Shown here: piece by piece, positions 2,940 through 40,866 of the stretch
Position numbering within the stretch: position 1 is the stretch's first letter
How the letters are laid out: every line of letters begins with the position of its first letter
Assembly: GCF_003946085.1 (NCBI RefSeq)
Contig: NZ_RHOB01000013.1
Span: forward strand, 1-64,000
DNA from: Levilactobacillus angrenensis
GTDB taxonomy: Bacteria > Bacillota > Bacilli > Lactobacillales > Lactobacillaceae
DNA: 64,000 nucleotides
Direction of reading: 5' to 3'
Position numbers and translations under genes: made by a program
Notes under the pieces: generated by a model
Seen by the model: only the letters and a program-made list of their open reading frames with translations
Database searches by the model: none
What the model was told of the DNA's origin: nothing

Positions 2940-3375
2940 CCGGAATGACAGTATCCTGTTCACTAAAATTAGTGAAACCAGGGCCTGCGTCAGCCAGGGT
3001 GATAATTGTCAGCAACACTGTGTTAGTTAAAGGCGGACTGTCAAATCAGCTGTCACCTGGGGCTGAACCAATTGTTGCTGGTACGCACTGCTGTAGCCGT
3101 GAGTCCGCCAAATATGGGTTCAGCCGTGGGAGTTGCCTTAGCGGCACGGTTCATGCCGCTTAGACAACTGGCGTCTTTAAGACGTGGGTTTCCGGCTCAA
3201 AGCGAGGCCGAGACCGTCCCTCAGGCTCGGTCCGGTCCGCCCACCGCGTTCCAACCCATAGTTGGCGGACGGTAGGCGGCCAGTTCTCACTATGAAGCTG
3301 CAAACGACAAATTTTTACGTCATGAACCGCGTAGTGAAAATGTTTCCACCTGATTTTCAATCTTCTACCTTGAGC
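2940..3375 (+). repeat. intergenic structured repeat, copy A (most complete)
   Basis: This gene-free stretch is the fullest copy of a dispersed repeat. Modules in order are: a piece with AGTGAAACCAGGGCCTGCG (about 2970-2990), a piece with CCTGGGGCT and CTGGTACGCACT, a GTAGCCG box, the stem arm TCCGCCAAATATGGGTT (about 3103), an inner hairpin, GGTCCGCCCACCGCG, the matching arm AACCCATAGTTGGCGGA, and a tail ending in CTGATTTTCA. The tail and left module recur at 40.6-40.9 kb and, inverted, at 36.4-36.6 kb; the core recurs near 17.0 and 22.1 kb. No coding potential is seen. The rest of the gap up to 3620 holds nothing recognisable. Confidence 0.8.
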
Positions 3376-3634
3376 TGTCCGCGAGAGTTGAAGGTTTTCT
3401 TAAGAAGCTGGTGTAAGGGGTAAGGAATTGCCGCTGGATTTCGTTGGTATTAGTAAGAGGAGTGGTTGTCAGTAATCACCACCGCAGCTAAGAGCTTGCT
3501 GGCGAACGACAGGCAACCAGTAGCAACAGTGTTTTGGCAAAATCAGACAATTTCAGCGCGGCTGCTTGTATTTCTGGCGCGCTTCCCTTAAAATTAGACA
3601 CCGATTAGTATTTTGCTAGAGGAGGCAATTGCGC

Positions 3635-4915
3635 GTGCATTTTCGCATACGAGACGGGGTAACGCTCGACCTGTTACCCACTAAACAATTTAAAACAATT
3701 GGCATTAAGGTGGACTTTGTAGCGCCACTGACGGCCACGGCGATCACCGCGCGAGCACTGTTAGCGCAGGTATTAGAGACCAGTACGGCGGCGTATCCGA
3801 CCCAAACGGCTTTGGCGCGACAATTATCACGCTTATACGGCGCTAGTTTTGGCATCAGCGTGGTGAAATTAGGGACCAAGCACGTGATTCGGTTAACGTG
3901 TTCGGTGGTTGATGAACAGTATTTGGATCAATTTGCTGATCAGACGCCGCTGTTTGAACAGGGGATGGCGCTCCTCAAGGCCGTCTTGTTCGAGCCACTG
4001 TTGCCAAATGGGCAATTTGACCCGGCCACCTTTACCCAACAACGCCAGAACCTCTTGACGGCAATCAAATCATTAGATGATGACAAACAATATTTAGCTA
4101 ACCGGCGACTTCAGGAATTGTTGTTCACTGGTCAGCCAGCCCAGGCCATGAGCGCCTTGGGTGACACTACGACCTTGGGTGAATTGACGGCGACCGATAT
4201 TTTAGGGACTTACCATGACATGTTGGCCAACGATGCGATTCACGTTGCCGTGGTGGGCGATGTCACGGCTGACCGGGTGCAAGCAGCCCTTGAATCATGG
4301 CCGTTGACGGACCGGCAGTTGACAGACGACTCCCCGTATTATCGTTGGGAAAAGCGCGCCGACGTGCAGGCCGGTGATGACGTGGCGCCCGTGGTACAAG
4401 CCAAGTTGAATTTGGCTTATCAACTGCCAATTTACCGTGACGACGCGGACTTCATGGCGGCAGTGGTCTTTAATGCGGCCTTTGGTGGCACACCACTGTC
4501 CTTGTTGTTCACCAACGTGCGTGAGAAGGCCAGTCTAGCCTATTACGCTAGCAGCAGTTACAATCCCTTCACCGGGACGCTGGGCGTTCAAAGTGGGATT
4601 CAAGCGGAAAATCAGGAGCGCGTCGTCGCCATTATTGGAGAACAACTCGCCGCGATGCAACGTGGGGAGCTGTCGCCAGAACTCTTAGCCGAGGTCAAGG
4701 CCAGTCTCTTAAATGCACGCTTGGCCGGGCTGGACAGTCCCCAACGTAAATTGGTCAGTCTGCTCAACAGTGAATTGACTCATTTGACGGAACCGCTCAA
4801 GACGTGGCAGGAAAAATTAGCGGCGGTCACCGTCGCTGACGTGCAACGCGTGGCCCAACAAGTCACGTTGCAGGCCACCTATTGCTTACACGGGGGTGCG
4901 CAACATGCTAACTAA
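3635..4915 (+). CDS. M16-family peptidase homologue, non-catalytic partner
   Basis: This 426-residue protein belongs to the M16 (pitrilysin/insulinase) clan and matches YmfF by position and length. It lacks the inverted zinc motif HxxEH that its neighbour has, so it probably acts as the non-catalytic half of a two-protein protease, as in other paired M16 systems. A conserved tyrosine-rich segment (LAYYASSSYNPF) lies in the C-terminal half. Two starts are possible: TTG at 3629, only three bases after the GGAGG site, and GTG at 3635 with good spacing; GTG is used here. It overlaps the next gene by about ten bases, so the pair is translationally coupled. The natural substrate is unknown. Confidence 0.85.
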   Translation: MHFRIRDGVTLDLLPTKQFKTIGIKVDFVAPLTATAITARALLAQVLETSTAAYPTQTALARQLSRLYGASFGISVVKLGTKHVIRLTCSVVDEQYLDQFADQTPLFEQGMALLKAVLFEPLLPNGQFDPATFTQQRQNLLTAIKSLDDDKQYLANRRLQELLFTGQPAQAMSALGDTTTLGELTATDILGTYHDMLANDAIHVAVVGDVTADRVQAALESWPLTDRQLTDDSPYYRWEKRADVQAGDDVAPVVQAKLNLAYQLPIYRDDADFMAAVVFNAAFGGTPLSLLFTNVREKASLAYYASSSYNPFTGTLGVQSGIQAENQERVVAIIGEQLAAMQRGELSPELLAEVKASLLNARLAGLDSPQRKLVSLLNSELTHLTEPLKTWQEKLAAVTVADVQRVAQQVTLQATYCLHGGAQHAN

Positions 4916-6194
4916 ACAAACGTATACACGGTTGGGTGAGACCGTCTTTCAAACGACTTTGGCTAACGGTTTGAAGGTTATCTTGGTCCCCAAAGCCGGT
5001 TTTCACAAGACTTTTGCCGTGATGACCACCAACTACGGGTCGACCGACAACGAATTCGTGCCGCGGGGCCAAAGTCAAGCGGTGCGGTTCCCCGATGGGA
5101 TTGCCCACTTCTTGGAACACAAGTTATTTGAAAAGGAAGACCACGACGCCTTTGACCTGTTTGGCCAATACGGCGCCAGTGCCAATGCCTTTACTAGCTT
5201 CACGCAGACCAGCTACTTGTTTGCGACGACGAGCCACCTGCACGAAAACCTGGACATCTTACTAGATTTCGTTCAGCAACCGTATTTCACGGCAGCAACG
5301 GTCAACAAGGAAAAGGGCATCATCGGCCAAGAAATTGAAATGTACGACGATGACCCCGGCTGGCAGAGCTACTTTGGCATGATTGGCCAACTTTATCCGC
5401 GTGAGCCGTTGCACATCGACATCGCCGGGACCGTGGATTCTATTGATAAAATTACCGCCGATGACCTGTATGCGGCGTACAACACGTTCTATCATCCCAG
5501 CAATATGAATTTAATTGTGGTGGGGCAGCTAGATCCCGAAGAAACGTTGGCGTGGATCACGGCAAACCAAGACCAGAAGACGTTTGGACCTAGCCAGCCG
5601 ATCGAACGAATCGCTTCGCCGCAGACGCCGGCCACAGAGATTGCGCCCACGACGACGCGGCACCTGACCGTCAACCGGCCTAAGGTCAGCATTGGCCTGC
5701 GCGGGTATGATGAAGTCCCAGCAGGTCAGGCGGGATTGGCCTACAACGTTGCGGTATCACTGGCCTTTGATTTACTGTTCAACGATACCAGTGACAACTA
5801 CCTACGTTTGTACGATGCAAACGTCATCGACGACAGTTTCGGCTATGATTTCCAAATTCAACGGGGCGCACATTTTGCCCAATTGGCCGGCGACACCGAT
5901 CATCCAGAATCTTTTGTTAGTGAACTAACTGCGATCCTGACCGATGCGCCCGCTCAACTATTGGCGGCTCAGGCACAATTTGAATTGGTCAAACGCGAAG
6001 CCATCGGGCGGACGATTGGCGCCATCAATTCGGTCGAAGCCATCGCCAATCAGTATGACGGACCGCTATTTGGCGGGGCCACCATCTTTGATGAACTGAC
6101 CGTTCTTGAGGGGATGACCTTCGCCGACGTTCAAGCGGCCATGGCGCAATTTCAGGCAGCCAGCCGGCAGACCGTTTATACGATTTTGCCGTAA
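4905..6194 (+). CDS. M16-family zinc peptidase (YmfH type)
   Basis: This is the catalytic half of the M16 pair. The zinc and catalytic residues are visible as HFLEH at residues 68-72, with a downstream glutamate in GQEIEMYDDDPG near residue 146 as third ligand. The length of 429 residues fits the family. The ATG lies eight bases after a GGGGG site inside the previous gene; a GTG nine bases upstream is a weaker alternative. It is followed by rodZ and pgsA, the order seen in Bacillus subtilis. Homologues have been linked to EF-P modification in annotation, but nothing here shows that. Confidence 0.88.
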   Translation: MLTKQTYTRLGETVFQTTLANGLKVILVPKAGFHKTFAVMTTNYGSTDNEFVPRGQSQAVRFPDGIAHFLEHKLFEKEDHDAFDLFGQYGASANAFTSFTQTSYLFATTSHLHENLDILLDFVQQPYFTAATVNKEKGIIGQEIEMYDDDPGWQSYFGMIGQLYPREPLHIDIAGTVDSIDKITADDLYAAYNTFYHPSNMNLIVVGQLDPEETLAWITANQDQKTFGPSQPIERIASPQTPATEIAPTTTRHLTVNRPKVSIGLRGYDEVPAGQAGLAYNVAVSLAFDLLFNDTSDNYLRLYDANVIDDSFGYDFQIQRGAHFAQLAGDTDHPESFVSELTAILTDAPAQLLAAQAQFELVKREAIGRTIGAINSVEAIANQYDGPLFGGATIFDELTVLEGMTFADVQAAMAQFQAASRQTVYTILP

Positions 6195-6306
6195 CGGAGG
6201 TTAAGAAACCGTTAAATCCTGAATTCTGGGTGTTGTGGCTGAAAATGCGGCGATGCCTATGCTATACTGCTTATAGAGAAATTTTGAACAGGTGGAGAAT
6301 TAAATC

Positions 6307-7245
6307 ATGAGTGATAACAGCAAAATTACATTGGGAAAAACGCTGCGTGATGCGCGTATCGCGAAGGGGTTCACGCTGGACGACCTGCAACAGACGACGA
6401 AGATTCAAAAACGTTATCTGATTGCCATCGAAGACCAAAACTTCGATGAGTTGCCTGGAGACTTTTACGTGCGAGCATTTATCAAGCAGTACGCCGACAT
6501 GGTCGACTTAGATGGGGCGGAGCTGTTAAAGCAATTTGACAGTGCTTTGCCGAGTACGCAGACGCAAGAATACGTCGATAAGGTCAATGAGAACAATCCG
6601 GAGACCCGGTCGCAACAGCGGCAAGTCGACGAGCGCTACGTTAAATTACGGCGGATGATTCCGGTCGTTGGGATCGTTATCGTTGTGCTGGTCATTTTGG
6701 TTGGTATCTGGGTCGCTGCGTCACACAACGGCGGCGGTACCACGAAGGATAACGTTGACAGCAGTTCGGTCAGCGTTTCCGGTAGCAGTTCGAACAAGAC
6801 GAAGAGCAGCAGTAGCAGTAAGTCATCTTCCTCGAAGAAATCTTCTTCTAAGAAGGCCACTAAGACACCTAGCTTCAAGCAATTGAGCTCGACGACTTCT
6901 GGGTCCACTTGGGAAATGAAGAATGCTTCTTCTAAGCCAAAGATGAGCTTGTCAGCAACTGGAAGTGCTTGGATGTCCGTTACGGTCAGCGGTTCCACTG
7001 TTTGGCAAGGGACCTTGTCGTCTTCAACTTCACATTCTTTGACGATTCCAAGTTCAGCAACGAGTGTGACCTTGAAGTTTGGGAATGCCCCAGCTACCAA
7101 GGTTAAGGTTGACGGCAAGAGCTTTGACTTTACGTCCGCAACCAGTACGAGCAACGCCACGAGTTCCAGTTCAACGACTGGTACCACGACGAGCTCTAGC
7201 ACCACGACTTCACAAGTACAAACTGTGACGTTGGAATTTAAGTAA
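6307..7245 (+). CDS. RodZ-like helix-turn-helix membrane protein
   Basis: RodZ links the MreB cytoskeleton to the cell-wall elongation machinery. The protein has an N-terminal Xre-type helix-turn-helix (residues 8-70), a lysine/arginine-rich stretch, one transmembrane helix near residues 118-140 and an outer DUF4115 domain. The outer part is joined by a very serine-rich linker, and a second Ser/Thr-rich stretch lies near the C terminus. This topology (cytoplasmic N terminus, outer C terminus) and the position between the M16 pair and pgsA match ymfM of Bacillus. The Ser/Thr stretches are probably flexible wall-spanning linkers. Confidence 0.88.
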   Translation: MSDNSKITLGKTLRDARIAKGFTLDDLQQTTKIQKRYLIAIEDQNFDELPGDFYVRAFIKQYADMVDLDGAELLKQFDSALPSTQTQEYVDKVNENNPETRSQQRQVDERYVKLRRMIPVVGIVIVVLVILVGIWVAASHNGGGTTKDNVDSSSVSVSGSSSNKTKSSSSSKSSSSKKSSSKKATKTPSFKQLSSTTSGSTWEMKNASSKPKMSLSATGSAWMSVTVSGSTVWQGTLSSSTSHSLTIPSSATSVTLKFGNAPATKVKVDGKSFDFTSATSTSNATSSSSTTGTTTSSSTTTSQVQTVTLEFK

Positions 7246-7315
7246 GACTCAAGGCGGGTCGGTCCGTGGCGACCGGCGCGCTTTTTCTTTGAGAAATTTT
7301 AAGGAGGAACTTTCC

Positions 7316-7903
7316 GTGAACCTGCCAAATCGTTTAACAATTGTTCGTATCATCTTGATTCCTATTTTCATCCTCTTACTGGTCTTGCCATTAGACTGGG
7401 GCCAAGTGACCTGGCTCGGGACCGCGATTCCCGTCGCCCAAGTCTGGGGGGCCGTCGTGTTTGCGGCAGCGTCCATCACCGACTTCTTAGATGGCCAAAT
7501 TGCCCGGCGCAATCATCTGGTCACCAATTTCGGTAAATTCGCTGACCCGCTGGCGGATAAAATGATTGTCATGACGGCGTTCATCATTCTGGTGTCAATG
7601 GGGGCTGTGCCAGCTTGGGCGGTCGCCATCATCGTGTGCCGGGAGCTGGCCGTGACCGGCTTACGGTTGATTGTCGTGGAAACTGGGGGCAAGGTCTTAG
7701 CCGCTGCCTGGCCAGGGAAAATCAAGACAACGACCCAAATGGTGGGAATCATCTTGCTATTATTGAATAACATTGGCTTTGGTGCCATCAACGTGCCAAT
7801 GGCATTGATTTTCTTCTACATCTGCCTGTTCTTCACGATCTACTCCGGAATCGACTACTTCGTCCAAAATCGCCAAGTGTTTGCGGAATCTTCAGCGGAG
7901 TAA
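7316..7903 (+). CDS. CDP-diacylglycerol-glycerol-3-phosphate 3-phosphatidyltransferase
   Basis: PgsA makes phosphatidylglycerol phosphate, the committed step to phosphatidylglycerol and cardiolipin, in the membrane. The CDP-alcohol phosphotransferase signature, DG followed by AR and then G, D and D at set spacing, is seen in DFLDGQIARR and FGKFADPLADK near residues 58-84. Four to six hydrophobic helices are present and 195 residues is the normal length. The GTG start sits six bases behind AAGGAGGA; an ATG 27 bases upstream lacks a site. Confidence 0.93.
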   Translation: MNLPNRLTIVRIILIPIFILLLVLPLDWGQVTWLGTAIPVAQVWGAVVFAAASITDFLDGQIARRNHLVTNFGKFADPLADKMIVMTAFIILVSMGAVPAWAVAIIVCRELAVTGLRLIVVETGGKVLAAAWPGKIKTTTQMVGIILLLLNNIGFGAINVPMALIFFYICLFFTIYSGIDYFVQNRQVFAESSAE

Positions 7904-7986
7904 CTGCGGTAAGCTGGCGAAGGCAAGTTAAAGGAAATTCGGGATTGCGTGAAATTGAAATGCCGGTTTGACGGGATTTGTTTAGT

Positions 7987-8380
7987 GTATTCCCCACAGG
8001 TGTGGGGGTGATCCTCCACGTTGGCGGTCTTGAATTGCTGCGTGTAAATATTCCCCACAGGTGTGGGGGTGATCCTACGTCACCATATTCTATTACCGGA
8101 AGTGCTGAGTATTCCCCACAGGTGTGGGGGTGATCCCTCGATCTACAATGATATCGGTTTTGAGCATCTGTATTCCCCACAGGTGTGGGGGTGATCCTAT
8201 CACATCAGAGAAAATCAATGGTCAGCGAGTGTATTCCCCACAGGTGTGGGGGTGATCCCCGCGTACTGCGGATTAAGGAGAGATAGATATGGTATTCCCC
8301 ACAGGTGTGGGGGTGATCCCTATCTAGTTTGTTTGCCGGAGTTAGCAGAACAGTGTTCCCCACAGCTATGGGCAGTTAAA
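7987..8380 (+). CRISPR. orphan type I-E-like CRISPR array, 7 repeats and 6 spacers
   Basis: Seven 28-base repeats begin at 7987, 8048, 8109, 8170, 8231, 8292 and 8353, each separated by a 33-base spacer, a strict 61-base period. The repeat starts GTATTCCCCACAGG and ends GGGGGTGATCC; its palindromic CCCCACA/TGTGGGG core resembles type I-E repeats. Repeat 2 starts with A instead of G. Repeat 7 matches only in its first half (GTGTTCCCCACAG) and then decays, which marks the leader-distal end and puts the leader on the left, in the 83 bases after pgsA. No cas gene occurs in the 64 kb. A weak hairpin and T-run follow. Confidence 0.97.
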
Positions 8381-8382
8381 GA

Positions 8383-8417
8383 GGTAGCAGTCAAATCCGA
8401 CGGCTATCTTTTTTTGT
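8383..8417 (+). terminator. possible terminator after the CRISPR array
   Basis: GGTAGC and GCTATC, with one G-U pair, can form a short stem with a T7 run directly behind. It would end transcription of the array before cinA. The 170 bases that follow up to cinA are AT-rich with no clear element except the cinA ribosome site. Confidence 0.5.
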
Positions 8418-8588
8418 GAAATCAACCGATTCGCGAGGTAAGATTAGCCGTGCTGACGAAATTTGTGGTACGATTTCAGTACAAGTGTTTTTCACTGACG
8501 ACAGGTTTTTGAAAAATAAATCGAGAAAAATAAAAAAATCCGCGAGTTTTTACGGAGTTAACTTTAAGTCACCTCAGGAGGGGTCAGC

Positions 8589-9839
8589 ATGCAAGCGGAA
8601 ATTATTGCGGTCGGAACGGAAATTTTATTGGGGCAAATCGTGGATACCAATTCGGCGTTTATTGCCCAAGAGCTCGCCCAAGCGGGAATTGAAGTGTACT
8701 ACCATTCATTGGTGGGCGACAATGCTGACCGCCTGACTGCGGTGGTGAACCAAGCCCGTTCGCGCAGTGATCTGGTGATTATCAGTGGCGGTTTGGGACC
8801 GACCAAGGATGACCTGACCAAGCAGACGGTCGCACATTTGCTGGGGGTCAAGCTGGTAGAAGATGAGCCGGCCATGGCGAAGATTCGCCAACACTTCTCC
8901 ACGGCGGACCGACCAATGACGCCTAATAACCGGTTACAGGCGCTTTACCCGGAAGGCAGCCAACCACTCAAGAATCGGACTGGAATGGCTGTAGGGGCCT
9001 TTTATCAGGATCCTAATGCGGCTGACATCATGTTATTGCCAGGACCACCTAGCGAAGCGGAACCGATGTTTGCGGAGCAAGGGGTGCCGTTGTTAAAGGC
9101 GACCTACCACCGGAGCGAATTTCTGGAGTCGCGCGTCTTGCGGTTCTTTGGCATTGGCGAAGGCAAATTGGTAACGGAACTGGCTGATTTGATTGACCAG
9201 CAGACCAACCCGACGATTGCGCCCTACGCTAAGGTCAATGAGGTCACGCTCAGACTGACGGCGCGGGCCCATGAAGAGGCTACGGCGGTCAAGTTGCTGG
9301 ATAAAATGACAGCGACGATTCAAGACCGGGTGGGTGACTACCTGTACGGTTTCGGCGATGACAATAGTTTGGCAGCCGTGGTCGTCAATGAAATGATCGA
9401 CCGACAACTGACGATTACCGGCGCCGAAAGCCTGACCGCTGGGAAATTCCAGAGCACGCTGGGGGATGTTCCGGGCGTCTCCGCAATCTTCCCTGGCGGC
9501 TTCGTGACCTATGCCAATGCGGCCAAGCACACCTTGTTGGGCATCCCACAAGAGATCATTGACCGAGATGGCGTTGTGAGTGCTGCGACGGCCCAACAAA
9601 TGGCGGAACGGTCGCGGGCGTTGCTGGACACGGACTTCTCTTTGAGCTTCACTGGCGTGGCGGGGCCAGATAGCCTGGAAGGGCATCCCGCCGGCACCGT
9701 TTGGCTAGGCTTAGCGCAACGCGGTCACGAACCCCGGGCACGGTTAGTTCACCTGACCGGTACCCGAGCAGCAATTCGCGAGCGGTCGGTCATGACCGGT
9801 TTGGACTGGTTACGGCGTGTGTTGAACGGAACAAAATAA
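8589..9839 (+). CDS. CinA family competence/damage-inducible protein
   Basis: CinA couples an N-terminal molybdopterin-binding-like domain (residues 1-170, with GTEILLGQIVDTN and SGGLGPTKDD) to a C-terminal CinA domain with nicotinamide mononucleotide deamidase activity (about 255-415, with TAESLTAG and GVAGP). It recycles NMN and is linked to competence in some Gram-positive bacteria. The full length of 416 residues fits. ATG follows AGGAGGGG by seven bases. recA follows after 90 bases, an arrangement conserved in lactic acid bacteria, although here recA has its own promoter and SOS box. Confidence 0.93.
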   Translation: MQAEIIAVGTEILLGQIVDTNSAFIAQELAQAGIEVYYHSLVGDNADRLTAVVNQARSRSDLVIISGGLGPTKDDLTKQTVAHLLGVKLVEDEPAMAKIRQHFSTADRPMTPNNRLQALYPEGSQPLKNRTGMAVGAFYQDPNAADIMLLPGPPSEAEPMFAEQGVPLLKATYHRSEFLESRVLRFFGIGEGKLVTELADLIDQQTNPTIAPYAKVNEVTLRLTARAHEEATAVKLLDKMTATIQDRVGDYLYGFGDDNSLAAVVVNEMIDRQLTITGAESLTAGKFQSTLGDVPGVSAIFPGGFVTYANAAKHTLLGIPQEIIDRDGVVSAATAQQMAERSRALLDTDFSLSFTGVAGPDSLEGHPAGTVWLGLAQRGHEPRARLVHLTGTRAAIRERSVMTGLDWLRRVLNGTK

Positions 9840-9843
9840 GGGG

Positions 9844-9893: not shown

Positions 9894-9929
9894 GTTACTT
9901 GAATATTGATGCACCAAAGGAGGATTTGG

Positions 9930-11063: not shown

Positions 11064-11068
11064 GCGTG

Positions 11069-16689: not shown

Positions 16690-17170
16690 TAATTTGCCGC
16701 CTGCGGCTGCCAGGGTTCCGCCTGCTATGGGGAACGGCTCCAGCCTGAGAAACGGGCTTCCGCCTCGCTTCAAAGCCTCGCCCAACCCGCGAGTCTCTGA
16801 AGTCGTCCCACGCTGTAGGCTGAGACAAAACCTCAGCCAACACCGTCGACACAGCTGGCTACACCCTGGCGACCTCCGGCTAGATTGTCTGCCAATGGTT
16901 ACGTGGCAATAAACCGATTTCAACTATGCTGTCGGTGGCTAACTCAGTCGTTGCTGACTATTACTATCGTAGCCGAGAGTTCGCCAAATATGGGCTCAGC
17001 CGTGGGAGTTCCCTTGGCGGTACGGTTCATGCCGCTTAGGGAACTGGCGTCTTTGAGACGCGGGCCACCGGCTCAAAGCGAGGCCGAGACCGCTTCTCAG
17101 GCTCGGTCCGGTCCGCCCACCGCGTTCCAGTCCCATATTTGGCGAACGGTAGGCGGACATTTTGGCCAAT
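16690..17170 (+). repeat. intergenic structured repeat, copy B (two parts)
   Basis: The mutS-mutL gap holds two repeat pieces. The first (16700-16800) has GGTTCCGCCTGCTATGGGG and CTCCAGCCTGAG, shared with the 28.4 kb (inverted) and 40.7 kb copies. The second (16970-17165) is a core unit: GTAGCCGAGAG, stem arm TTCGCCAAATATGGG, inner hairpin AGTTCCCT/AGGGAACT, GGTCCGCCCACCGCG, and the exactly complementary arm CCCATATTTGGCGAA. No gene is present. Confidence 0.8.
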
Positions 17171-22039: not shown

Positions 22040-22245
22040 AGTAGCTGGCGCCTTGCCGTTCGCCCAATCTGGGCTGGAACGCTGGGGGAGGACGCCCCAA
22101 GCCAAAGAGCGGTCTTGGGCCTTGCTTTGAGCCGGTAAGCTCACTGTCTCAAAGCGAGGGCGAGACCGTCCTTTGGCTCGACCGGTCCGCCCACCGCGCT
22201 CCAGTCCCATATTTGACGAACGGTAGGCGACCAGCGAATCTCAAA
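22040..22245 (+). repeat. intergenic structured repeat, copy C
   Basis: A core-only copy lies between queA and tgt. An imperfect outer stem pairs TTCGCCCAATCTGGGCTGGA with its partner around CCAGTCCCATATTTGACGAA, and inside are AAAGCGAGGGCGAGACCG and GGTCCGCCCACCGCG, as in copies A and B. The arm is less perfect than in copy B, so it may be decaying. Confidence 0.7.
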
Positions 22246-24039: not shown

Positions 24040-24480
24040 AGGTTGGGTAAACCAGTTGCCTGCACCAGTCAGGGCTAAGCCTTTACTGATACTAACGAAA
24101 TGGCCAGCAAAAAAGTTACCCCTTGAGCGTAAAATTAATCAAAAAATTGATGAAAAGCCTGTCATAACGGTGTTCAGGGAAACGGCAGCCAGTTATTTTT
24201 TGAAGATTAGCCAACCATTTATGATTGAAGACAAACGTTTGTTTGGGTATAATTTAATTATTAATGAACCTAGTCACGAGTCGCCATTGTAAGTAAGCTA
24301 TGGATAATCAAAGGAAGCTAGTATGCAACCACCTTGACTGCGGTTGCGGCGGACTACGCAAATCTGATTTGATAGCGTTATTGTAGCCGAGAGTGGAGCG
24401 AAAGATGAGCCCAGCCGTCCGCCACCGCGTTCCGGCTCATCTTTCGCGCAACGGCAAGGCGGTCAGTGTCCACTAGGTAA
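24040..24480 (+). repeat. intergenic structured repeat, copy D (partial)
   Basis: The gap between yajC and dinB has a weak left module near 24050 (AAACCAGTTGCCTGC) and a compact core at 24375-24470. The core keeps GTAGCCGAGAGT, CAGCCGTCCGCCACCGCG and AGGCGGTCA, but its stem is a different sequence, GCGAAAGATGAGCC pairing perfectly with GGCTCATCTTTCGC. This replaced arm is the best sign that pairing rather than sequence is kept. Confidence 0.7.
24225..24253 (+). promoter_or_regulatory. promoter with a palindromic operator-like site upstream of dinB
   Basis: TTGAAG and TATAAT are 17 bases apart, and the spacer begins with the perfect palindrome ACAAACGTTTGT. It resembles a repressor site but lacks the GAAC-N4-GTTC form of the SOS box. 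dinB starts about 250 bases downstream and is the nearest gene. Confidence 0.55.
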
Positions 24481-28091: not shown

Positions 28092-28156
28092 AGCATTAGA
28101 GGAATAAGGCATTTCTGTTCGGCAAAGCCGAGCAGGGATGCCTTATTTTTCTAAGC
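28092..28156 (+). terminator. terminator after the RNA helicase
   Basis: AATAAGGCAT pairs with ATGCCTTATT, extended by a TTCGGC/GCCGAG inner hairpin, with a T-run after. Outer sequences GCGAACCG and GGTTCGC can extend the stem. Confidence 0.8.
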
Positions 28157-28327
28157 GCAGGAGTCTGGTTCGCGGAGCACGTTTCGGAAGCCGCCAGGAC
28201 CAGGATAGTATGGCGTAAATATCTCAAACGAACCGAGCCAATCCAATTGCCCAAGCCCCCCAATGCGAGCAGGGATACCTTATTTTTCTAAGCGCAGGAG
28301 TCTGGTTCGCGGAGCACGTTTCGGAAG
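28130..28327 (+). repeat. 61-base direct repeat, two copies
   Basis: Bases 28130-28190 and 28267-28327 are the same 61-base segment with a single difference (GGGATGCC against GGGATACC). It includes the right half of the helicase terminator and AGTCTGGTTCGCGGAGCACG. The 76 bases between carry no gene. The second copy lacks the left terminator arm, so it looks like a partial tandem duplication. Confidence 0.85.
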
Positions 28328-28332: not shown

Positions 28333-28450
28333 TTAACTAGCCGCCAACAGTACCTCGGCTCGGTCTTGCCAGGCTTCAAAGTAAACCGAAAGCCCGTCTT
28401 TCAGGCTGGAGGGGTCCACCATAGCAGATGGCCCCCCTGTCAGTCGCAAG
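28333..28450 (-). repeat. intergenic structured repeat, copy E (inverted, partial)
   Basis: Read on the minus strand this gives CTGCTATGG, CTCCAGCCTGA, ACGGGCTT and TTTGAAGCCT in the same order as the first part of copy B. It is the left half of the repeat in inverted orientation, lying just before the alaS promoter. Confidence 0.6.
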
Positions 28451-32702: not shown

Positions 32703-32717
32703 TCAGTTTCAACGCGG

Positions 32718-33425: not shown

Positions 33426-33426
33426 T

Positions 33427-33966: not shown

Positions 33967-33987
33967 GCAATTCGGGAGGAGACTCGA

Positions 33988-36351
33988 ATGAATTCAAAAA
34001 CTTTAAATATTATGGAGTACGACCGCATCAAGCAGGCCTTGCGCGGCTATTTGGTCTCCGCAGCTGGTCAGCATGAACTGGCCAATTTAGCGCCCACGGC
34101 CGATGCCAAGCAACTCCAAATCTGGTTGGATGAAACCAGAGATGGCGCGGATATTTACCGCCTAGAAAGCGGGATTCCACTGCCTAAGTTGGACGATATT
34201 CGGCCACATTTACACCGGTTGGCCATGGAGGCCGCCTTAAACGGGCTTGAGCTGGCGCAAATCAGTCGCGTGCTGTGGACCACGGGTTCCGTCGCTAAAT
34301 TTTTCCGCGACCTGGCCGAAAAAGAAGTCGCACTGCGGCGATTAGACCGCGAAGTCAAGGAACTGGTGACCTTACCCGACGTGACGCGCCGGTTGCGGGT
34401 CTCACTGGAAGGCGACGGCCGGTTAACGGATGAAGCCTCACCCGCCTTGAAACAGATTCGCCAGCACATCACCCAAACGGAAGCCGCTATTCGGACGTCG
34501 ATGGATCAATACACACGGGGCAAGGATGCCAAATACCTGAGTGAGACCATCGTCACGATTCGCGATGACCGCTACGTGATTCCGGTCCGCGCCGAATACA
34601 AGCAACGCTTCGGCGGCATTGTCCACGACCAAAGCGCCAGTGGGCAAACGCTGTTCATTGAACCGCAAGCTGTCGTTGGGTTGAACAACCGCTTGCGGCA
34701 AAATCAAATCGACGAACGCCATGAAGAACAACGCATTTTGGCAGAGCTGACGGCATTGTTGGCACCGTATCAAGATGAGATTCTGCGGAACTCAGAAATT
34801 CTGGGGCATTTTGACTTCATCAACGCCAAGGCCAAGTACGCCCACGCGTTGAAAGCTACGGAACCGAAACTGTCATTAGATGACCAGGTCAATCTCCGCC
34901 AAGCACGGCACCCGTTGATCGACCAGAAGAAGGTCGTCGCCAACGATATTACGATTGGCAAGGATTATAAAGCCATCATCGTGACCGGGCCGAACACCGG
35001 TGGGAAAACCATTACCTTGAAGACGTTGGCCTTGGTTCAACTGATGGGGCAATCCGGTCTGTTCATTCCTGCCAATGAAAACAGTGTGATTGGTGTCTTC
35101 CACGATATCTTTGCGGATATTGGGGATGAACAATCCATTGAACAGAGCCTGAGTACCTTCTCCGGGCACATGGAAAATATCGTGGCTATTTTAAAGCAAG
35201 CGGATGAACACAGTTTGATCGTGGTCGATGAACTGGGTGCCGGGACCGATCCCCAAGAAGGGGCGGCACTGGCCATTGCCATTTTGGATGAAATCGGCAC
35301 GCTGGGCAGTTATGTCATGGCGTCGACCCACTATCCGGAATTAAAGGCTTACGGCTACAATCGACCGGATACCATTAACGCCAGCATGGAGTTCAACGGT
35401 GAGACCTTACAGCCGACCTATCACCTGTTGATTGGGATCCCTGGGCGAAGTAATGCGTTAGACATTGCGGCGCGGCTAGGGATGCCATCGCAGGTCGTGG
35501 ATGCGGCGCGTGGGTTGACCGATCAAGACAGTCAAGACTTGAATGCCATGATTTCTGATTTGACCGAGCAGAAACGCCGGGTCGATCAGGATGCCGAAAA
35601 CTTGCGGACGCAGCTGGCTGAAGCCGACGAGGTTCACGACCAGTTGCAAAAGCAATTTGACGCTTACCAACATCAAAAGGATCAATTGATGTTGGATGCC
35701 AAACGAGAAGCCAACCGCCTGGTCGATGAGTCGCGCAAGCGGGCCAACCAAATCATCTCTGACCTGCGGAAGAAGCAGTTAGCGGCCGGCAAGAGTGTTG
35801 TTAAGGAAGACGAGTTGATTGCGGCACAAGGCGCTTTGAACGCCTTACAACAGGATACCAAGTTGAAGAAAAACCGGGTACTGCGCCGGGAGAAGGCCAA
35901 GTTGGACTTCCACAAGGGCGACAGCGTGTTGGTCAAGTCCTATGGTCAAATCGGGGTCTTGATGCAGCAGTTGGATGACAGTCATTGGGAAGTGCAATTG
36001 GGTATCTTGAAGATGAAGATTGCCAACAACGACTTGGAAAAGGCCAAGGACCCAGCCAAGTCAGCCAAGCAACCGCGAGCCAGTGTTAAGCGTAGCGGCT
36101 CCAGTGGGATGTCACCGACCCTCGACTTGCGGGGCCACCGCTACGAAGAGGCCATGGCTGAGGTGGATCGCTACATTGATTCTGCCTTACTAGCCGGTTA
36201 CCCGTCCGTGACGATTATCCACGGGAAAGGGACGGGGGCCTTGCGTAAAGGCGTTACGGAATACCTGAAGCGCAACAACCGAATCAAGAGCTTCGGCTTC
36301 TCGCCAGCCAATGCCGGTGGGGATGGCTCAACGGTGGTGCGGTTTAAGTAA
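33988..36351 (+). CDS. endonuclease MutS2
   Basis: MutS2 is a MutS paralogue without the mismatch-binding domain; it restrains recombination and in Bacillus rescues collided ribosomes. Walker A GPNTGGKT is near residue 334, followed by VVDELGAGTDPQEG. A long charged coiled coil (about 520-640) leads to the C-terminal Smr domain, with LDLRGHRYEEA and IHGKGTGALRKGV. At 787 residues it is complete. Confidence 0.96.
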   Translation: MNSKTLNIMEYDRIKQALRGYLVSAAGQHELANLAPTADAKQLQIWLDETRDGADIYRLESGIPLPKLDDIRPHLHRLAMEAALNGLELAQISRVLWTTGSVAKFFRDLAEKEVALRRLDREVKELVTLPDVTRRLRVSLEGDGRLTDEASPALKQIRQHITQTEAAIRTSMDQYTRGKDAKYLSETIVTIRDDRYVIPVRAEYKQRFGGIVHDQSASGQTLFIEPQAVVGLNNRLRQNQIDERHEEQRILAELTALLAPYQDEILRNSEILGHFDFINAKAKYAHALKATEPKLSLDDQVNLRQARHPLIDQKKVVANDITIGKDYKAIIVTGPNTGGKTITLKTLALVQLMGQSGLFIPANENSVIGVFHDIFADIGDEQSIEQSLSTFSGHMENIVAILKQADEHSLIVVDELGAGTDPQEGAALAIAILDEIGTLGSYVMASTHYPELKAYGYNRPDTINASMEFNGETLQPTYHLLIGIPGRSNALDIAARLGMPSQVVDAARGLTDQDSQDLNAMISDLTEQKRRVDQDAENLRTQLAEADEVHDQLQKQFDAYQHQKDQLMLDAKREANRLVDESRKRANQIISDLRKKQLAAGKSVVKEDELIAAQGALNALQQDTKLKKNRVLRREKAKLDFHKGDSVLVKSYGQIGVLMQQLDDSHWEVQLGILKMKIANNDLEKAKDPAKSAKQPRASVKRSGSSGMSPTLDLRGHRYEEAMAEVDRYIDSALLAGYPSVTIIHGKGTGALRKGVTEYLKRNNRIKSFGFSPANAGGDGSTVVRFK

Positions 36352-36590
36352 CTAAAAGTTGAAAGATGAAAATCAGCCTATCGCCGTTAATGCTCGCCAG
36401 TTAACTGCCTATTGCCACACTCTTTTTCAGCGGTCCATATTTGGCGGGCTCTCGGCTACAAAAGTGCGTACCAGTAACAAGCGGCCTAGCCCCAGGTAGC
36501 GGCTGTTTTGGCAACTAGTCTTTGGCTGACGCAGGCCCTGGTTTCACTAGTTCTGGTGCACGTTTCGGCTATGAGGCCAGAGACGTGATC
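36352..36590 (-). repeat. intergenic structured repeat, copy G (inverted, core deleted)
   Basis: On the minus strand the order is AGAACTAGTGAAACCAGGG and CCTGCGTCAGCC (near 36530-36560), ACCTGGGGCT, ACTGGTACGCAC, GTAGCCGAGAGCCCGCC, AATATGG, and a tail CTGATTTTCATC close to the mutS2 stop. The order matches copy A, but the second stem arm and inner hairpin are missing, so it cannot fold like the others. It fills most of the mutS2-trxA gap. Confidence 0.8.
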
Positions 36591-36688
36591 TTCAGGTACT
36601 AATAAATTGTAAGCAATTTAGTTGTGATTTTAGAATATTCTGTTAGACTTAGAAATATAGTTGATAATTTGAGAGGGAGGCAATATGT

Positions 36689-37006
36689 ATGGCAGTAGTA
36701 GAAACAACTGATAAGACCTTTGAACAAGATACGTCAAAGGGCGTCACTCTGACTGATTTTTGGGCAACTTGGTGTGGTCCTTGCCGGATGCAATCACCAG
36801 TCGTTGAACAACTCTCTGATGAGATGGACAACGTCACCTTCAACAAGATGGACGTTGACGCTAACCCGAACACGCCCCAATCCTTTGGCATCATGAGCAT
36901 CCCTACCTTGTTAGTCAAGAAGGATGGCCAAGTGGTCGACTCCATCGTGGGTTACCACTCCAAAGACCAATTGAAAAAGATCTTAGACCAATACGTTGAA
37001 GCCTAA
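36689..37006 (+). CDS. thioredoxin
   Basis: Thioredoxin reduces disulphides in cytoplasmic proteins, including ribonucleotide reductase. The active site WCGPC is at residues 28-32 and the cis-proline region reads MSIPTLLV. The 105-residue length is standard. Two overlapping ATGs occur; the one shown is in frame and eight bases after GGGAGG. Confidence 0.97.
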   Translation: MAVVETTDKTFEQDTSKGVTLTDFWATWCGPCRMQSPVVEQLSDEMDNVTFNKMDVDANPNTPQSFGIMSIPTLLVKKDGQVVDSIVGYHSKDQLKKILDQYVEA

Positions 37007-37016
37007 CGAAACGTCA

Positions 37017-37055
37017 AAAAACGGTTGTCACATTTTTTGTGACAGCCGTTTTTTT
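37017..37055 (+). terminator. trxA terminator, possibly bidirectional
   Basis: AACGGTTGTCACA and TGTGACAGCCGTT form a strong stem with T-runs on the plus strand and an A-run on its left. It can also end the minus-strand yslB-like gene. Confidence 0.9.
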
Positions 37056-37086
37056 AATTTTAGGGCTATGAAAATAATGTTATCAA

Positions 37087-37596
37087 CTATTCAACGTCCG
37101 GCGTATCCGGGCGGACGATAGTCAAAGGTTCTGGCGCGTCGTAGTCGGGGATGACATCATCGGGATCCGTGTAAACGTCAAAGGTGACAGTGGTTGCCTG
37201 GAGTTTGCGGGGGGAATCCACCAGTTCAGCTTCGGCTTCGACGCCGAGTTGTTGGGCCATCATTTCGGCCAAGAAACCGGCCTCTAGGGTAAAGTCATCT
37301 TCACCGGCAACTTGTTTGCGTAGCTTAACGGGCGTGCCGCTTAACTGCCAGCGCGTCATTTGGGCGGTCTGCTTGACCAGGGTCAGCGTGCCAAAGCCGG
37401 CTTGGGCAAAGAAGGCAGCGGCATCTTTGGGGTTGCCCAAAGGAAAACGCCGGGCCAGCGATTTGCCAGCCCAGTAGCTGATTGCGCCTTGGTCGTCACC
37501 CAGTAATTCGGGGAGTAAGGCTTCACGAATCAACATTTGCGGGAAATTAGCGGCTCCGTCGGCATCGGCCATGACGGTTTGATATAAGTTTTTCAC
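37087..37596 (-). CDS. YslB-like DUF2507 protein
   Basis: The protein matches the DUF2507 family (YslB), with MLIREALLPELLGDDQGAI and YWAGKSLARRFPL near the N terminus, and resembles a small heme/4-vinyl-reductase-like fold. Its function is not known. The start shown is GTG, nine bases after AAGGAG. An ATG 18 bases upstream would give 175 residues, but the ribosome site would then lie inside the gene. It faces trxA across a terminator. Confidence 0.8.
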   Translation of the reverse strand: MKNLYQTVMADADGAANFPQMLIREALLPELLGDDQGAISYWAGKSLARRFPLGNPKDAAAFFAQAGFGTLTLVKQTAQMTRWQLSGTPVKLRKQVAGEDDFTLEAGFLAEMMAQQLGVEAEAELVDSPRKLQATTVTFDVYTDPDDVIPDYDAPEPLTIVRPDTPDVE

Positions 37597-37723
37597 GATG
37601 GTTGGCTCCTTCATTCCGTTTCAGTTCTGTGACCATTATACCGTAGTTCCTTGACAAATATGACAATCTGATAAATTTTAGGCATTTTTTATGACGAACC
37701 TGCCATATTGACTAGCATGAAAC

Positions 37724-37752
37724 TTGAAACCGGTTCATAAAAAGGCGATAAT
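37724..37752 (+). promoter_or_regulatory. promoter of racE-rdgB operon
   Basis: TTGAAA and GATAAT are spaced 17 bases and lie 36 bases before the glutamate racemase start. Confidence 0.6.
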
Positions 37753-37787
37753 GGAGATTCAAGAACATCGAGAAGGAGCGTTGATTC

Positions 37788-38618
37788 ATGCAAACAGATC
37801 CGATTGGCCTTATGGATTCAGGAGTCGGCGGTTTAACGGTTTTAAAGGAAGTTCAGCGGGTCTTGCCTGCTGAAAATACGGTATTTTTGGGCGACCAGGC
37901 CCGCTTGCCGTATGGTCCCCGGTCGGCAGAAGAAGTCACGACCTTTACCCGGCAGATTGCCACTTACTTACGGCAACATGCCAACATGAAATTATTTATC
38001 ATCGCTTGTAATACGGCAACGGCAGCGGCCCTGAGCCAAATGCAAGCGGAGTTGCCAGTGCCAGTGGTGGGCGTCATTGCACCTGGCGCAGAAATGGCGG
38101 TGCAGACCACGAAGAACCATCAAATCGGGGTCATTGCTACCGAAGGGACCGTGAATAGCGGTCAGTATCAGCGCGATATTTCAGCGGCTGACGTTAACAG
38201 TCAGGTCATCAGTGTGGCGTGCCCACAAATGGTGACCCTGGCGGAACAAAACGATTTGGATTCAGACCACGCCCGACAAATCGTTGCCCAGAACTTGGCA
38301 CCACTGCAAGGTACTGGCATTGATACGTTGGTCATGGGGTGCACCCATTTTCCGCTCTTACGCGACGCCATTCAAGCGGCCGTGGGACCGGATGTGACGT
38401 TGGTGGACCCCGGCGTGGCCGCTGCTGAAAAGGCGGCAGCTATTTTAAAACAGCAACACGCGTTGAACACGAGTGGTGAACCGGTCACGGCGACCTACTA
38501 CACGACGGGTGACGTTGAACAGTTTAATCAATTGGCGAGTGAATGGTTGGACATGGCACCTAAAGCCGTGCACCATTTGCCCGAGTCCGTTTTAGACACT
38601 TCCGTGGAGGCAGAATAA
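37788..38618 (+). CDS. glutamate racemase
   Basis: MurI/RacE makes D-glutamate for peptidoglycan. The two catalytic cysteines lie in IIACNTATA near residue 67-75 and in VMGCTHFPLL near 180-190, and the start DSGVGGLTVLKE is diagnostic. The 276-residue length is normal. It heads an operon with rdgB (4 bases later), a phosphoesterase gene and cbpB. Confidence 0.96.
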   Translation: MQTDPIGLMDSGVGGLTVLKEVQRVLPAENTVFLGDQARLPYGPRSAEEVTTFTRQIATYLRQHANMKLFIIACNTATAAALSQMQAELPVPVVGVIAPGAEMAVQTTKNHQIGVIATEGTVNSGQYQRDISAADVNSQVISVACPQMVTLAEQNDLDSDHARQIVAQNLAPLQGTGIDTLVMGCTHFPLLRDAIQAAVGPDVTLVDPGVAAAEKAAAILKQQHALNTSGEPVTATYYTTGDVEQFNQLASEWLDMAPKAVHHLPESVLDTSVEAE

Positions 38619-38621
38619 CTC

Positions 38622-39224
38622 ATGGCAAACACCTTAGTCATTGCGACCAACAACCCCGGTAAGGCGCGCGAATTCCGGGCGATTTTTGAGCCCAAGGGCC
38701 TGCAAGTCAAAACATTGGCCGATTTCCCCGATTTAAAACAAGTGGCGGAGACCGGTAAGACGTTTACGGAAAACGCAACGTTGAAGGCGACCGCGGTCGC
38801 TCAACAGACCCAATTACCGGTTTTAGCCGATGATTCTGGCCTGATGGTCGACGCCCTGAACGGTGAACCTGGCATTTATTCCGCCCGTTACGCTGGCGAC
38901 CACGATGATGCTAAGAACAATGCGAAGCTACTGGCGAACCTCGAGGGCGTCCCCGCGGAAAAACGGGGGGCAGCCTTCCACACGTCACTGGTGCTGATCA
39001 AGCCTAATGGCAAGAAGTTAGTCGCTACCGGTGAGGTCCGCGGTGAGATTTTAACGGCACCGCGCGGCCACGATGGCTTTGGCTATGATCCGTTGTTTTA
39101 CGTGGCGGAAGACGGTCAGACGTTTGCCGAAATGGGTCTGGCGTTGAAGAATAAGCACAGCCACCGCGCCAAAGCCACGGCGGCGATGTTACCGCAATTC
39201 GATGAATGGTGGGAGGAAAAATAA
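38622..39224 (+). CDS. XTP/dITP diphosphatase (RdgB/HAM1)
   Basis: This pyrophosphatase removes deaminated purine nucleotides from the pool. The signature ATNNPGKAREFRAIF, the DDSGLMVDAL segment and GHDGFGYDPLF are intact in 200 residues. It overlaps the next gene by one base (TAATG), so translation is coupled. The racE-rdgB pair is common in lactobacilli. Confidence 0.96.
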   Translation: MANTLVIATNNPGKAREFRAIFEPKGLQVKTLADFPDLKQVAETGKTFTENATLKATAVAQQTQLPVLADDSGLMVDALNGEPGIYSARYAGDHDDAKNNAKLLANLEGVPAEKRGAAFHTSLVLIKPNGKKLVATGEVRGEILTAPRGHDGFGYDPLFYVAEDGQTFAEMGLALKNKHSHRAKATAAMLPQFDEWWEEK

Positions 39225-39751
39225 TGACACGTTGGCTGGTAATCAGTGATAATCACGGTGACCGCGATATTTTAGTGAGTCTGAAGGCGGCTTTGAAGCC
39301 GGATACCATTTTTCACTGTGGCGATTCGGAAATGACGGCCGATGACCCTTGGTTCAAGGACGCGTACGTGGTGCAGGGCAACATGGATTTTGATAGTCAG
39401 CTACCGTTGGTCCAAACGCCCACGGTGGACGGCTGCAAGGTTCTGTTGACCCACGGCCACTACGATGAAGTCCACTGGGACCTGACCAAGCTCAAGCTCC
39501 ACGCGGACCAAGAACAGGCCGACCTGGTCTTCTTCGGTCACACCCACGAACTGGCGGCTGAAGAGGCTGGGGGCCACGTTTTCGTGAATCCGGGCAGCAT
39601 CAGCCAGCCGCGCGGGGAATATCGGCAATTAGGTGGGACCTGTGCGCTGATCACCGTGACCCCTGAGTCGTGGGTCGTGCAGTATTACACCCGCGATGCC
39701 CAGCCCGTGCCTGAATTAAAATTTACCTTTACCCGGAACCAGAAAGGATGA
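39224..39751 (+). CDS. YfcE/MJ0936-type metallophosphoesterase
   Basis: This 175-residue calcineurin-like phosphodiesterase has the metal motifs SDNHGD, HCGDSE, VQGNMD, THGHYDEV and FGHTHE. The ATG chosen overlaps the rdgB stop codon; an earlier in-frame start lies inside rdgB. Such proteins cleave small phosphodiesters; the natural substrate is unknown. The next gene begins eight bases later. Confidence 0.9.
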   Translation: MTRWLVISDNHGDRDILVSLKAALKPDTIFHCGDSEMTADDPWFKDAYVVQGNMDFDSQLPLVQTPTVDGCKVLLTHGHYDEVHWDLTKLKLHADQEQADLVFFGHTHELAAEEAGGHVFVNPGSISQPRGEYRQLGGTCALITVTPESWVVQYYTRDAQPVPELKFTFTRNQKG

Positions 39752-39759
39752 CGTAACGC

Positions 39760-40251
39760 ATGATTGACGCTGCTGTGGAGCAGTTATTGCTAGACGACCC
39801 CAAGAGTTACGTGATTCCGGCGGACGTCGTGGCCAACGTGACGGCGACCAATACGCTGGAGCATGCGCTAATGGTGCTCTCAAAAGTGGGGTACAGTCGA
39901 ATTCCCGTGCTCGACGCTGACGACCACCTGCAGGGGATGATCTCATTAGCCGCGATTACCGACAAATTGTTGCACGTTCCCGGTGCCGCGGTCGAACAGC
40001 TCAGCAACTATACGGTGGCCGATGCCATGATTCCCGTGGAGCACTGGGTGGACGACCCCAAGAAACTGGAAACAATTTTAAACTATATGATTGACGAGCC
40101 TTTTATCCCCTTGTTAAATGACCAAAATGTTTTTCAAGGAATTATCACGCGACGAGAAATTTTAAAACGCGTGAATTACTTAGCCCACAACCTGGATAAC
40201 CATTATACCGTGACGGCCTTGGCCGACATGGTAAATAGTTCTGAAAGCTAG
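39760..40251 (+). CDS. CBS domain protein, CbpB/DarB type
   Basis: Two CBS domains fill the 163-residue protein (about 20-80 and 90-145). In Listeria and Bacillus the orthologue binds cyclic di-AMP and links it to the stringent-response enzyme Rel. It ends an operon with racE, rdgB and the phosphoesterase. Length and operon context support the assignment, but ligand binding is inferred. Confidence 0.82.
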   Translation: MIDAAVEQLLLDDPKSYVIPADVVANVTATNTLEHALMVLSKVGYSRIPVLDADDHLQGMISLAAITDKLLHVPGAAVEQLSNYTVADAMIPVEHWVDDPKKLETILNYMIDEPFIPLLNDQNVFQGIITRREILKRVNYLAHNLDNHYTVTALADMVNSSES

Positions 40252-40286
40252 CGTGGTCTTGGCCCGTAATAATGAGGAGGACCACT

Positions 40287-40445
40287 GTGAAAGTAGTTTT
40301 AGGTATTTTAATCGGCATCCTGTGGCTGTTTACGATTGGCTTGGCCATCATGGCAGCCACGGGCGCGGGGAGCTACTGGTCATTTTTGATTTTATTCGTG
40401 CTGGTCATGTTCAGCACCATCGACTGGTGGCGGCTCGACCGTTAA
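40287..40445 (+). CDS. small membrane protein of 52 residues
   Basis: A GTG start eight bases after AGGAGG opens a reading frame of 52 codons for a protein with two membrane helices: one from residue 3 to about 25 and a second from about 32 to 46, ending TIDWWRLDR. The ribosome site and hydrophobic pattern make it a credible gene. No family is recognised. It may belong to the cbpB operon, 35 bases upstream. Confidence 0.7.
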   Translation: MKVVLGILIGILWLFTIGLAIMAATGAGSYWSFLILFVLVMFSTIDWWRLDR

Positions 40446-40533
40446 CTGATCCGCAATTCTTAGGGAATCAATGGAAAGTTAGTGAAACTAGTTGCCTGCA
40501 GTTGTTGGCAGCAGCCAATTTTAAACGTGAACC

Positions 40534-40576
40534 AAAAAAAGTGATCACCACCCGCGTTGGGCAGTGATCACTTTTT
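40534..40576. terminator. bidirectional terminator
   Basis: AAAAAGTGATCAC and GTGATCACTTTTT form a perfect stem around a 17-base loop, with A- and T-runs at either side, closing the racE-cbpB operon. Confidence 0.9.
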
Positions 40577-40614
40577 AATTAATTATTTACCGAAGGTTGA
40601 AAGATGAATTAATG

Positions 40615-40866
40615 TCTTGACTCCCGGAGCGACAGCGTTTTGTTCACCAGAACTAGTGAAACCAGGGCCTGCGTCAGCCAGGGTTCCGCCTGCTATGGGG
40701 AACACCTCCAGCCAAAGAGCGGTCTTCCGGTCCGCCCACCGCGTTCCAACCCATAGTTGGCGGACGGTAGGCGGCCAGTTCTCACTACGAAGCTGTAAAC
40801 GACTAATTCTTCCATGAGTCGCGTGGTGACAATGTTTCTAGCTGATTTTCATCTTTCAACCTTCAG
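40615..40866 (+). repeat. intergenic structured repeat, copy H
   Basis: This copy carries the left module (AGAACTAGTGAAACCAGGG), then GGTTCCGCCTGCTATGGGG and CTCCAGCC, then GGTCCGCCCACCGCG and the arm GTTCCAACCCATAGTTGGCGG, and the full right tail (GCGGCCAGTTCTCACTA, then CTGATTTTCATC). The left arm CCGCCTGCTATGGGGAAC pairs with that right arm, whereas copy A uses a different left arm. The tail ends against the stop codon of the MscS gene. Confidence 0.8.

Follow-up and report, generated by a model that had tools for sequence, protein, structure and literature searches.

The 64,000-nucleotide stretch of Levilactobacillus angrenensis DNA analyzed here (positions 1 to 64,000 of contig NZ_RHOB01000013.1, assembly GCF_003946085.1; hereafter the window) carries dispersed intergenic copies of a repeat that represents a real, large and apparently undescribed family. 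We consider it fairly probable that the repeat has two layers, a vehicle in the form of a miniature inverted-repeat transposable element (MITE) moved by an IS4-type transposase, and a cargo in the form of a branched module folding as single-stranded nucleic acid. The initial annotation had proposed a "structured RNA or DNA element, or a non-autonomous mobile element", and both halves of this proposal were supported, the mobile half by the terminal repeats, by duplicated target sites and by an IS4 transposase as partner, and the structured half by base pairs that covary in two MAFFT alignments and also between genera. Random drift without covarying pairs and identity with a known element had been named as the results that would speak against it; the pairs covary, and no known family was matched in Rfam, plasmid and phage scans. 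Beyond that earlier reading, the element is an inverted module pair, and the module has spread far wider than its vehicle.

Terminal repeats, target duplications and an IS4-type partner

Full copies start with CTRAAGGTTGAAAG, a 14-bp terminal inverted repeat, and finish with its inverted form. At no more than one mismatch, this pattern occurred 138 times in the genome from which the window comes, compared with 5 times for the reversed control. A search for target duplications, as suggested in the annotation, found exact, flush duplications of 7-9 bp at 18 of 34 distinct two-ended copies (25 from the own genome and 9 from genome G015), for example TTATTTA, ACATTAT and TTACCTAA. Duplications of 7-8 bp, the length typical of the partner if loosely counted, accounted for 16 copies, and one copy had 9 bp. 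Of the 70 rows in the raw table, 28 matched at six or more of the seven flush positions, compared with a mean of 1.9 and a maximum of 7 for shuffled partners; these rows contained most copies once per strand, and dropping six spurious or shifted pairings left the 34 copies. The two-ended copies are 277-644 bp long and have no transposase gene of their own, being too short for one of about 1.35 kb.

An intact partner was found in another genome of the genus (G019, locus L172), where a 450-aa transposase lies between two perfect CTAAAGGTTGAAAG ends flanked by the 8-bp duplication CTGATTAA. The transposase matched the IS4-family model NF049925 of NCBIfam with an E value of 5.6e-141, and the element is 1.56 kb long with a Y-2-R-3-E-6-K motif, YARRWQIEGYFKVAK. 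A locus from another genus (L174) has the same ends and no clear duplication. The 14-bp ends are identical between the repeat copies and both of these loci. According to excerpts of PMC2266710, members of the ISPepr1 subgroup are 1500-1600 bp long and have 7-8-bp duplications, AT-rich targets and a YREK motif. L172 fits this subgroup in length, duplication and YREK motif, and its ends differ from the consensus YT-AA-YTT---A at one position (Y at 7). The identical ends in an intact IS4-family element of the same genus point to the end-bearing copies being MITEs of an ISPepr1-type element, a reading that is well supported, although the transposition itself is something we infer from sequence. 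Unlike ISPepr1, the present repeat has no transposase gene. Because only about 20 terminal bp, as judged by eye, are common to the repeat and L172, the inside of the repeat can be regarded as cargo.

In the own genome, a terminal repeat adjoins the C-terminal part of a transposase (Pfam DDE_Tnp_1) at positions 1992-3330 of locus L151 (contig C30 of G000). This relic is broken by another insertion sequence, which we take to be IS5-like. Used as a query, the relic piece matched 20 of 98 genomes including its own, and several of these matches were weak. A 3.9-kb end pair on contig C61 was rejected as an autonomous element, as its ends belong to two distinct elements separated by ordinary reading frames. 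As judged by eye, MITE copies at five loci (L024, L025, L027, L029 and L058) lie inside a second intergenic repeat, about GAGTGGGACAAAAGGCGGTTATCAGTTTTAAGCGGAACCAGCTG, and the target duplication at L058 is TTATCAG/CTGATAA. The partner transposase may prefer repeats of the GAGTGGGACAAAAGGCGGTTATCAGTTTTAAGCGGAACCAGCTG type as targets. In the mechanism we propose, copies with CTRAAGGTTGAAAG ends would be moved in trans by an ISPepr1-type IS4 transposase into AT-rich targets of 7-9 bp.

A branched module in divergent pairs

The left and right module profiles matched each other on the opposite strand; the element thus consists of one module of about 180 nt in two inverted copies. A single model for both was abandoned in favor of two models, because the joint alignment folded poorly. 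Close pairs in 39 chosen sources, out of more than 300 loci, were examined for orientation with the covariance model, yielding 18 distinct divergent pairs, 2 tandem pairs and no convergent pair. The count covers pairs whose starts lie no more than 700 nt apart, a limit chosen once the table had been inspected; the identical L304 and L305 were counted once, and the tandem pair at L310, 1.1 kb apart, was omitted. Divergent pairs occur in Levilactobacillus and in other genera.

No IS4-type end was found at up to three mismatches in 16 of 20 high-scoring own-genome loci, which had been chosen as absent from the BLAST full-copy list, or at up to two mismatches in 30 loci of genome G027. Several own-genome copies without recognizable ends still carry the MITE left-end sequence. 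Within Levilactobacillus, the module and the vehicle look separable on this evidence. It is improbable that the whole family is instead an ordinary MITE of one insertion sequence whose structure is a by-product of its inverted repeats. Such an origin would account for the ends, the duplications and the partner element, as well as for the paired modules, which are inverted repeats of each other, and it would fit the copies without recognizable ends that retain the left-end sequence. However, even a module taken singly has a branched fold that shows covariation, the loci without ends would be left over, and module matches, obtained on the module only, extend to nine further genera.

The structural half of the proposal holds as covariation and is well supported. 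In the alignment of 32 left modules (A2), 96.4% of 1661 cells were paired, compared with 33.6-44.1% when partners were slid by 1-3 columns, and 35 of 53 pairs had double-sided changes. The covariation score was 0.357 against 0.179 for the shuffles, none of which (0/500) reached it. For 25 right modules (A1), 97.1% of 1296 cells were paired (28.5-46.5% when slid), 26 of 52 pairs had double-sided changes, and the score of 0.279 (shuffles, 0.131) was again reached by 0/500. For both alignments MAFFT was run without structural information, the structures being derived from the same alignments, and 4 of 29 right and 3 of 35 left non-redundant modules were left out for large deletions or misplacement. 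Their rows are paralogues and orthologues, and the counts are not independent events. In a cross-genus alignment (A3; 64 matches, 62 distinct), which was fitted to the model and hence leans toward it, 96.4% of cells were paired and 48 of 53 pairs had double changes. The loop motifs and the helix order are kept from Levilactobacillus to other genera, as seen partly from this model-fitted alignment. The stems thus covary in both MAFFT alignments and in the cross-genus set.

On one strand of the module, G-U pairs outnumbered A-C combinations by 91:18 in A2, 81:10 in A1 and 138:41 in A3, and the pairs leaning to G-U exceeded the opposite kind by 25 to 5, 22 to 3 and 28 to 5, respectively. In right modules this is the strand that carries GTAGCCGAGAG, and in left modules it is the homologue of that strand. 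When only pairs predicted on both strands were counted, which removes the folding bias, the excess was 77:30 for 35 left modules and 77:20 for 29 right modules. A DNA cruciform alone gives no wobble asymmetry, whereas RNA or single-stranded DNA would. Because the wobble pairs favor one strand, it is probably in single-stranded nucleic acid that the fold matters, and more likely in RNA than in DNA.

In our two-layered reading, the cargo would be a branched module of about 180 nt, mostly arranged as divergent pairs, and its fold would be maintained in single-stranded nucleic acid. RNA made by read-through from neighboring genes would be its most likely form, in which case transcription from either side of a divergent pair would yield one module in the folding sense. 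For example, the module could form a structured element between genes or at a 3' end, rendering insertions harmless or stabilizing the ends of transcripts. That the cargo acts at the RNA level is a tentative assignment, somewhat short of an even chance.

Recognition of the cargo as single-stranded DNA, similar to that of REPINs, is unlikely but carries real weight. We give the same limited credence to the fuller form of this idea, in which a further enzyme would recognize the module as a unit of folded single-stranded DNA and move it in inverted pairs, with the IS4-type ends as a second vehicle added later. The inverted-pair layout in Levilactobacillus and other genera, the fold favored on one strand, the lack of a gene-orientation preference, the copies without IS4-type ends and the high copy number would all agree with such a unit. 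Pairs of repetitive extragenic palindromic (REP) sequences are thought to be moved by REP-associated tyrosine transposases (RAYTs). A precedent is provided by recombinant RAYT, which recognizes single-stranded REP DNA, according to excerpts of PMC3733652. However, no enzyme was found in a search that covered the IS4 partner only, and neither ends nor target duplications could be delimited for copies without terminal repeats. Furthermore, the module is branched and about 180 nt long, compared with 20-40 bp for REPs, and 20 of 25 right modules have GTAG at their foot, whereas none of the 32 left modules does.

The single modules of G027, the genome of a related species, have extra arms outside the core. 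Complementarity between the two flanks was higher within copies than between copies (11.91 vs 8.22; 0/2000 permutations, n=33), while the flanks of own-genome MITEs were not complementary (6.96 within vs 7.36 between; 1476/2000 permutations, n=24). Some of the G027 arms are common to the family, and others mirror the final codons of the gene next to them. A 19.9-kb stretch of G027 contains five modules, and G012 and G021 have every one of these at the corresponding site, in collinear blocks that are 90-96% identical. At one of these orthologous sites, G012 has the family arms; in G027 and G021 the left arm is missing, and a new partner of the gene end stands on the right. The outer arms of G027 are thus copy-specific palindromes, some mirroring a gene 3' end, which suggests that template switching builds stems; this is the simplest reading of the arms. 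Parts of PMC8794818 state that template switching can create and mend stems and can explain asymmetric base-pair frequencies. The annotation had stressed that the stem "changes sequence yet stays paired", a pattern that template switching could produce without selection.

The paired changes might then be mostly mutational, with template switching during replication rewriting imperfect palindromes and leaving stems paired without function. We regard this as rather unlikely, both as a general account of the paired changes and as a description of the cargo, and an explanation of the cargo outside all those discussed here seems remote. The ability of template switching to make and mend stems, the copy-specific outer arms of G027, their mirroring of gene ends and the new gene-end partner in two of three species at one orthologous site favor a mutational origin. 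The conservation of loop motifs and helix order across genera speaks against it, as does a wobble excess that is greater than the bias in unpaired columns. In the two-layered reading, template switching would probably supply many of the paired changes, and selection would keep the pairing and the loop motifs.

Several observations weigh against the two-layered reading. No exact target duplication was found at 16 of the 34 two-ended copies. The own genome yielded only the broken relic and no intact partner in a search of end pairs 1-2 kb apart that covered about 100 of the 138 pattern occurrences and 20 stretches. In unpaired columns, C-to-U changes exceeded G-to-A changes 1.8-fold in A2 (37/407 vs 45/882) and 2.5-fold in A1 (42/324 vs 25/474), so that strand-biased mutation may explain part of the wobble asymmetry. 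For the window modules, the two strands are similar in how well they fold (z of -5.7/-5.3 and -5.1/-5.0), and folding energy was uninformative for the choice of strand. At the five orthologous sites, the module cores are 81-97% identical, no better than the surrounding blocks. Relative to genes, the 32 single modules of G027, one of which overlaps a 358-aa reading frame, comprised 10 sense, 10 antisense, 8 convergent and 4 divergent cases. This lack of an orientation preference gives no help to an RNA role in cis, and an RNA acting in one fixed orientation to genes is unsupported by these modules.

The elements of these explanations may also be combined. In such a scheme, which we put forward with considerable doubt, an old, widespread module that folds as a single strand would move as divergent pairs by an unknown enzyme and would have boarded several vehicles, including the IS4-type MITE; template switching would copy gene ends into new arms, rewriting stems while the fold persists.

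Copies in the window, copy number and range

The initial annotation had claimed at least eight copies, and family sequence was found at all eight places by direct reading, repeat finding and profile searches. The three stems that it cited are present as quoted, and the shared tail CTGATTTTCA lies in the right terminal region, adjoining the inverted repeat. Copy A (2906..3374, plus strand) is a MITE with the left terminal repeat CTGCAGGTTGAAAG, which has one mismatch, and a decayed right end. Its left module is deleted and its right module is kept (3093..3279, plus strand, which is the wobble-excess strand; nhmmer E 2e-50). Copy B (16700-17156) is a full module pair in which no terminal repeats were seen, composed of a left module on the minus strand (16700..16879; covariance model R1, 194 bits) and a divergent right module on the plus strand (16969..17156; nhmmer E 2e-47). 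It lies in a gap between genes that we take to be mutS and mutL. Copy C (22049..22229, with no strand assigned) is a shortened inverted fusion of right-module halves, which matched on opposite strands with E values of 3e-19 and 6e-19. Copy D (24383..24462, plus strand) is a right module with its inside deleted, whose outer stem (24398-24411 with 24434-24447) is wholly different in sequence and still paired. Copies C and D were ruled out as independent families, both being deletion forms.

A left-module fragment lies on the minus strand at 28363..28449 (nhmmer E 2e-14). The same gap contains a 62-bp direct repeat, 98% identical, at 28129-28190 and 28266-28327. An inverted partial MITE at 36352..36561 (minus strand) retains one terminal repeat, at 36352-36365. 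The copy at 40.6 kb (40590..40866, plus strand) is a short MITE with both terminal repeats and partly deleted modules, and it is flanked by the target duplication TTATTTA on the left (40583..40589) and on the right (40867..40873). A weak right-module fragment was found at 42780..42898 (plus strand; nhmmer E 6e-6). The window copies are thus mostly deletion forms. Full copies are about 640 bp long, because matches to the left and right halves of the 40.6-kb copy lie about 650 bp apart elsewhere. Many copies lie beside transcription ends or terminators, in AT-rich stretches, as judged by eye and without a control. Other features of the window are a T-box leader at 212-442 (103.6 bits, over the cut-off), a CRISPR-like array at 7964-8319 with 61-bp spacing and the repeat GTATTCCCCACAGGTGTGGGGGTGATCC, and a long reading frame containing a 12-bp tandem array at 57939-58134.

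With the 40.6-kb copy as a query, BLAST gave 67 matches in the own genome (2.80 Mb, 62 contigs). A full copy of about 640 bp gave at least 42 matches, of which at least 40 span 518-673 bp at 83-100% identity; these are lower bounds, as only the best 40 of 286 candidates were scored. The 67 BLAST matches and the at least 40 near-full matches place the family far beyond chance. Model R1 found at least 135 module matches in the own genome, at least 85 of them over 130 bits, with 150 of 1046 candidates scored. In BLAST searches, matches to the full element were obtained in 25 of the 34 other Levilactobacillus genomes and in none of 23 from outside the genus. The covariance model matched 67 of 301 Lactobacillaceae genomes in 10 of 40 genera, with E values down to 3e-38 outside the genus, and species of Lactiplantibacillus and Companilactobacillus were among the named neighbors with module matches. 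In a sample of the order, 11 of 295 genomes matched, 10 in Lactobacillaceae and 1, weakly (E 5e-6), in another family.

Occupancy was compared at the mutS-mutL and queA-tgt gaps (these names, like yajC and dinB, are presumed from the proteins). Family sequence fills both gaps in the window, L. brevis CD0817 and L. suantsaiihabitans, and strain HBUAS51381 has it at mutS-mutL as well. At both sites, the gaps are short and contain no match in L. brevis ATCC 14869, L. tujiorum and L. suantsaii. These filled and empty gaps among relatives indicate that occupancy is lineage-specific, which is the variable occupancy that the annotation had suggested looking for. G003 and G033 have stretches that are collinear with the window; where occupancy was compared in these, both the spans and the modules differed.

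Searches of plasmid records (72,556) and phage records (50,697), from which very near records are possibly omitted, gave no match, and spread by plasmids or phages thus finds no support there. A scan of the window against Rfam 15 gave no match at cut-off except the T-box, and the full element gave two matches with E values of about 3, far below the cut-offs; these scans of the window and one full element do not support a known RNA family. No description of the repeat was found in the portion of the open-license literature naming lactobacilli that was judged by title and the beginning of the abstract.

Significance and relation to known systems

The repeat, apparently unnamed, has more than 100 module matches in one genome and occurs in ten genera that include food fermenters. 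From its intergenic position, it may shape transcript ends. Its many paralogues and orthologues with copy-specific arms make the origin of the stems, by selection or by template switching, testable in close relatives, and the partner transposase makes the mobile half open to concrete experiment. The family is a natural case for studying how folding structures arise and spread.

The closest kind of known repeat is bcr1 and the other bcr repeats of the Bacillus cereus group, which are likewise intergenic, dispersed and MITE-like. According to parts of PMC3446304 and PMC2267715, RNA secondary structure is conserved in some bcr families, and about half of the copies lie within mRNA; bcr1 is tabulated at 147-167 bp with 12-31 copies (PMC2267715). 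The present repeat differs in its host group, its divergent branched pairs, its at least 135 matches and its range of ten genera, a distinction drawn by description rather than by sequence comparison. The Lactobacillus johnsonii repeat family Lac-1, tabulated in the same part of PMC2267715, was not compared with it. The pneumococcal BOX and RUP elements are likewise small interspersed repeats in a Gram-positive genome according to excerpts of PMC3049150, and were compared by description only. PMC3733652, which concerns REP recognition, does not contain the words Firmicutes or Lactobacillus. REPs and REPINs resemble the present repeat in forming inverted pairs of a folding repeat, in their intergenic position, in their high copy number and in a fold favored on one strand. 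However, REPs are hairpins of 20-40 bp with GTAG or CGTC tags, whereas the present module is about 180 nt long and branched and has GTAG at the foot of right modules only (20/25, against 0/32 left modules).

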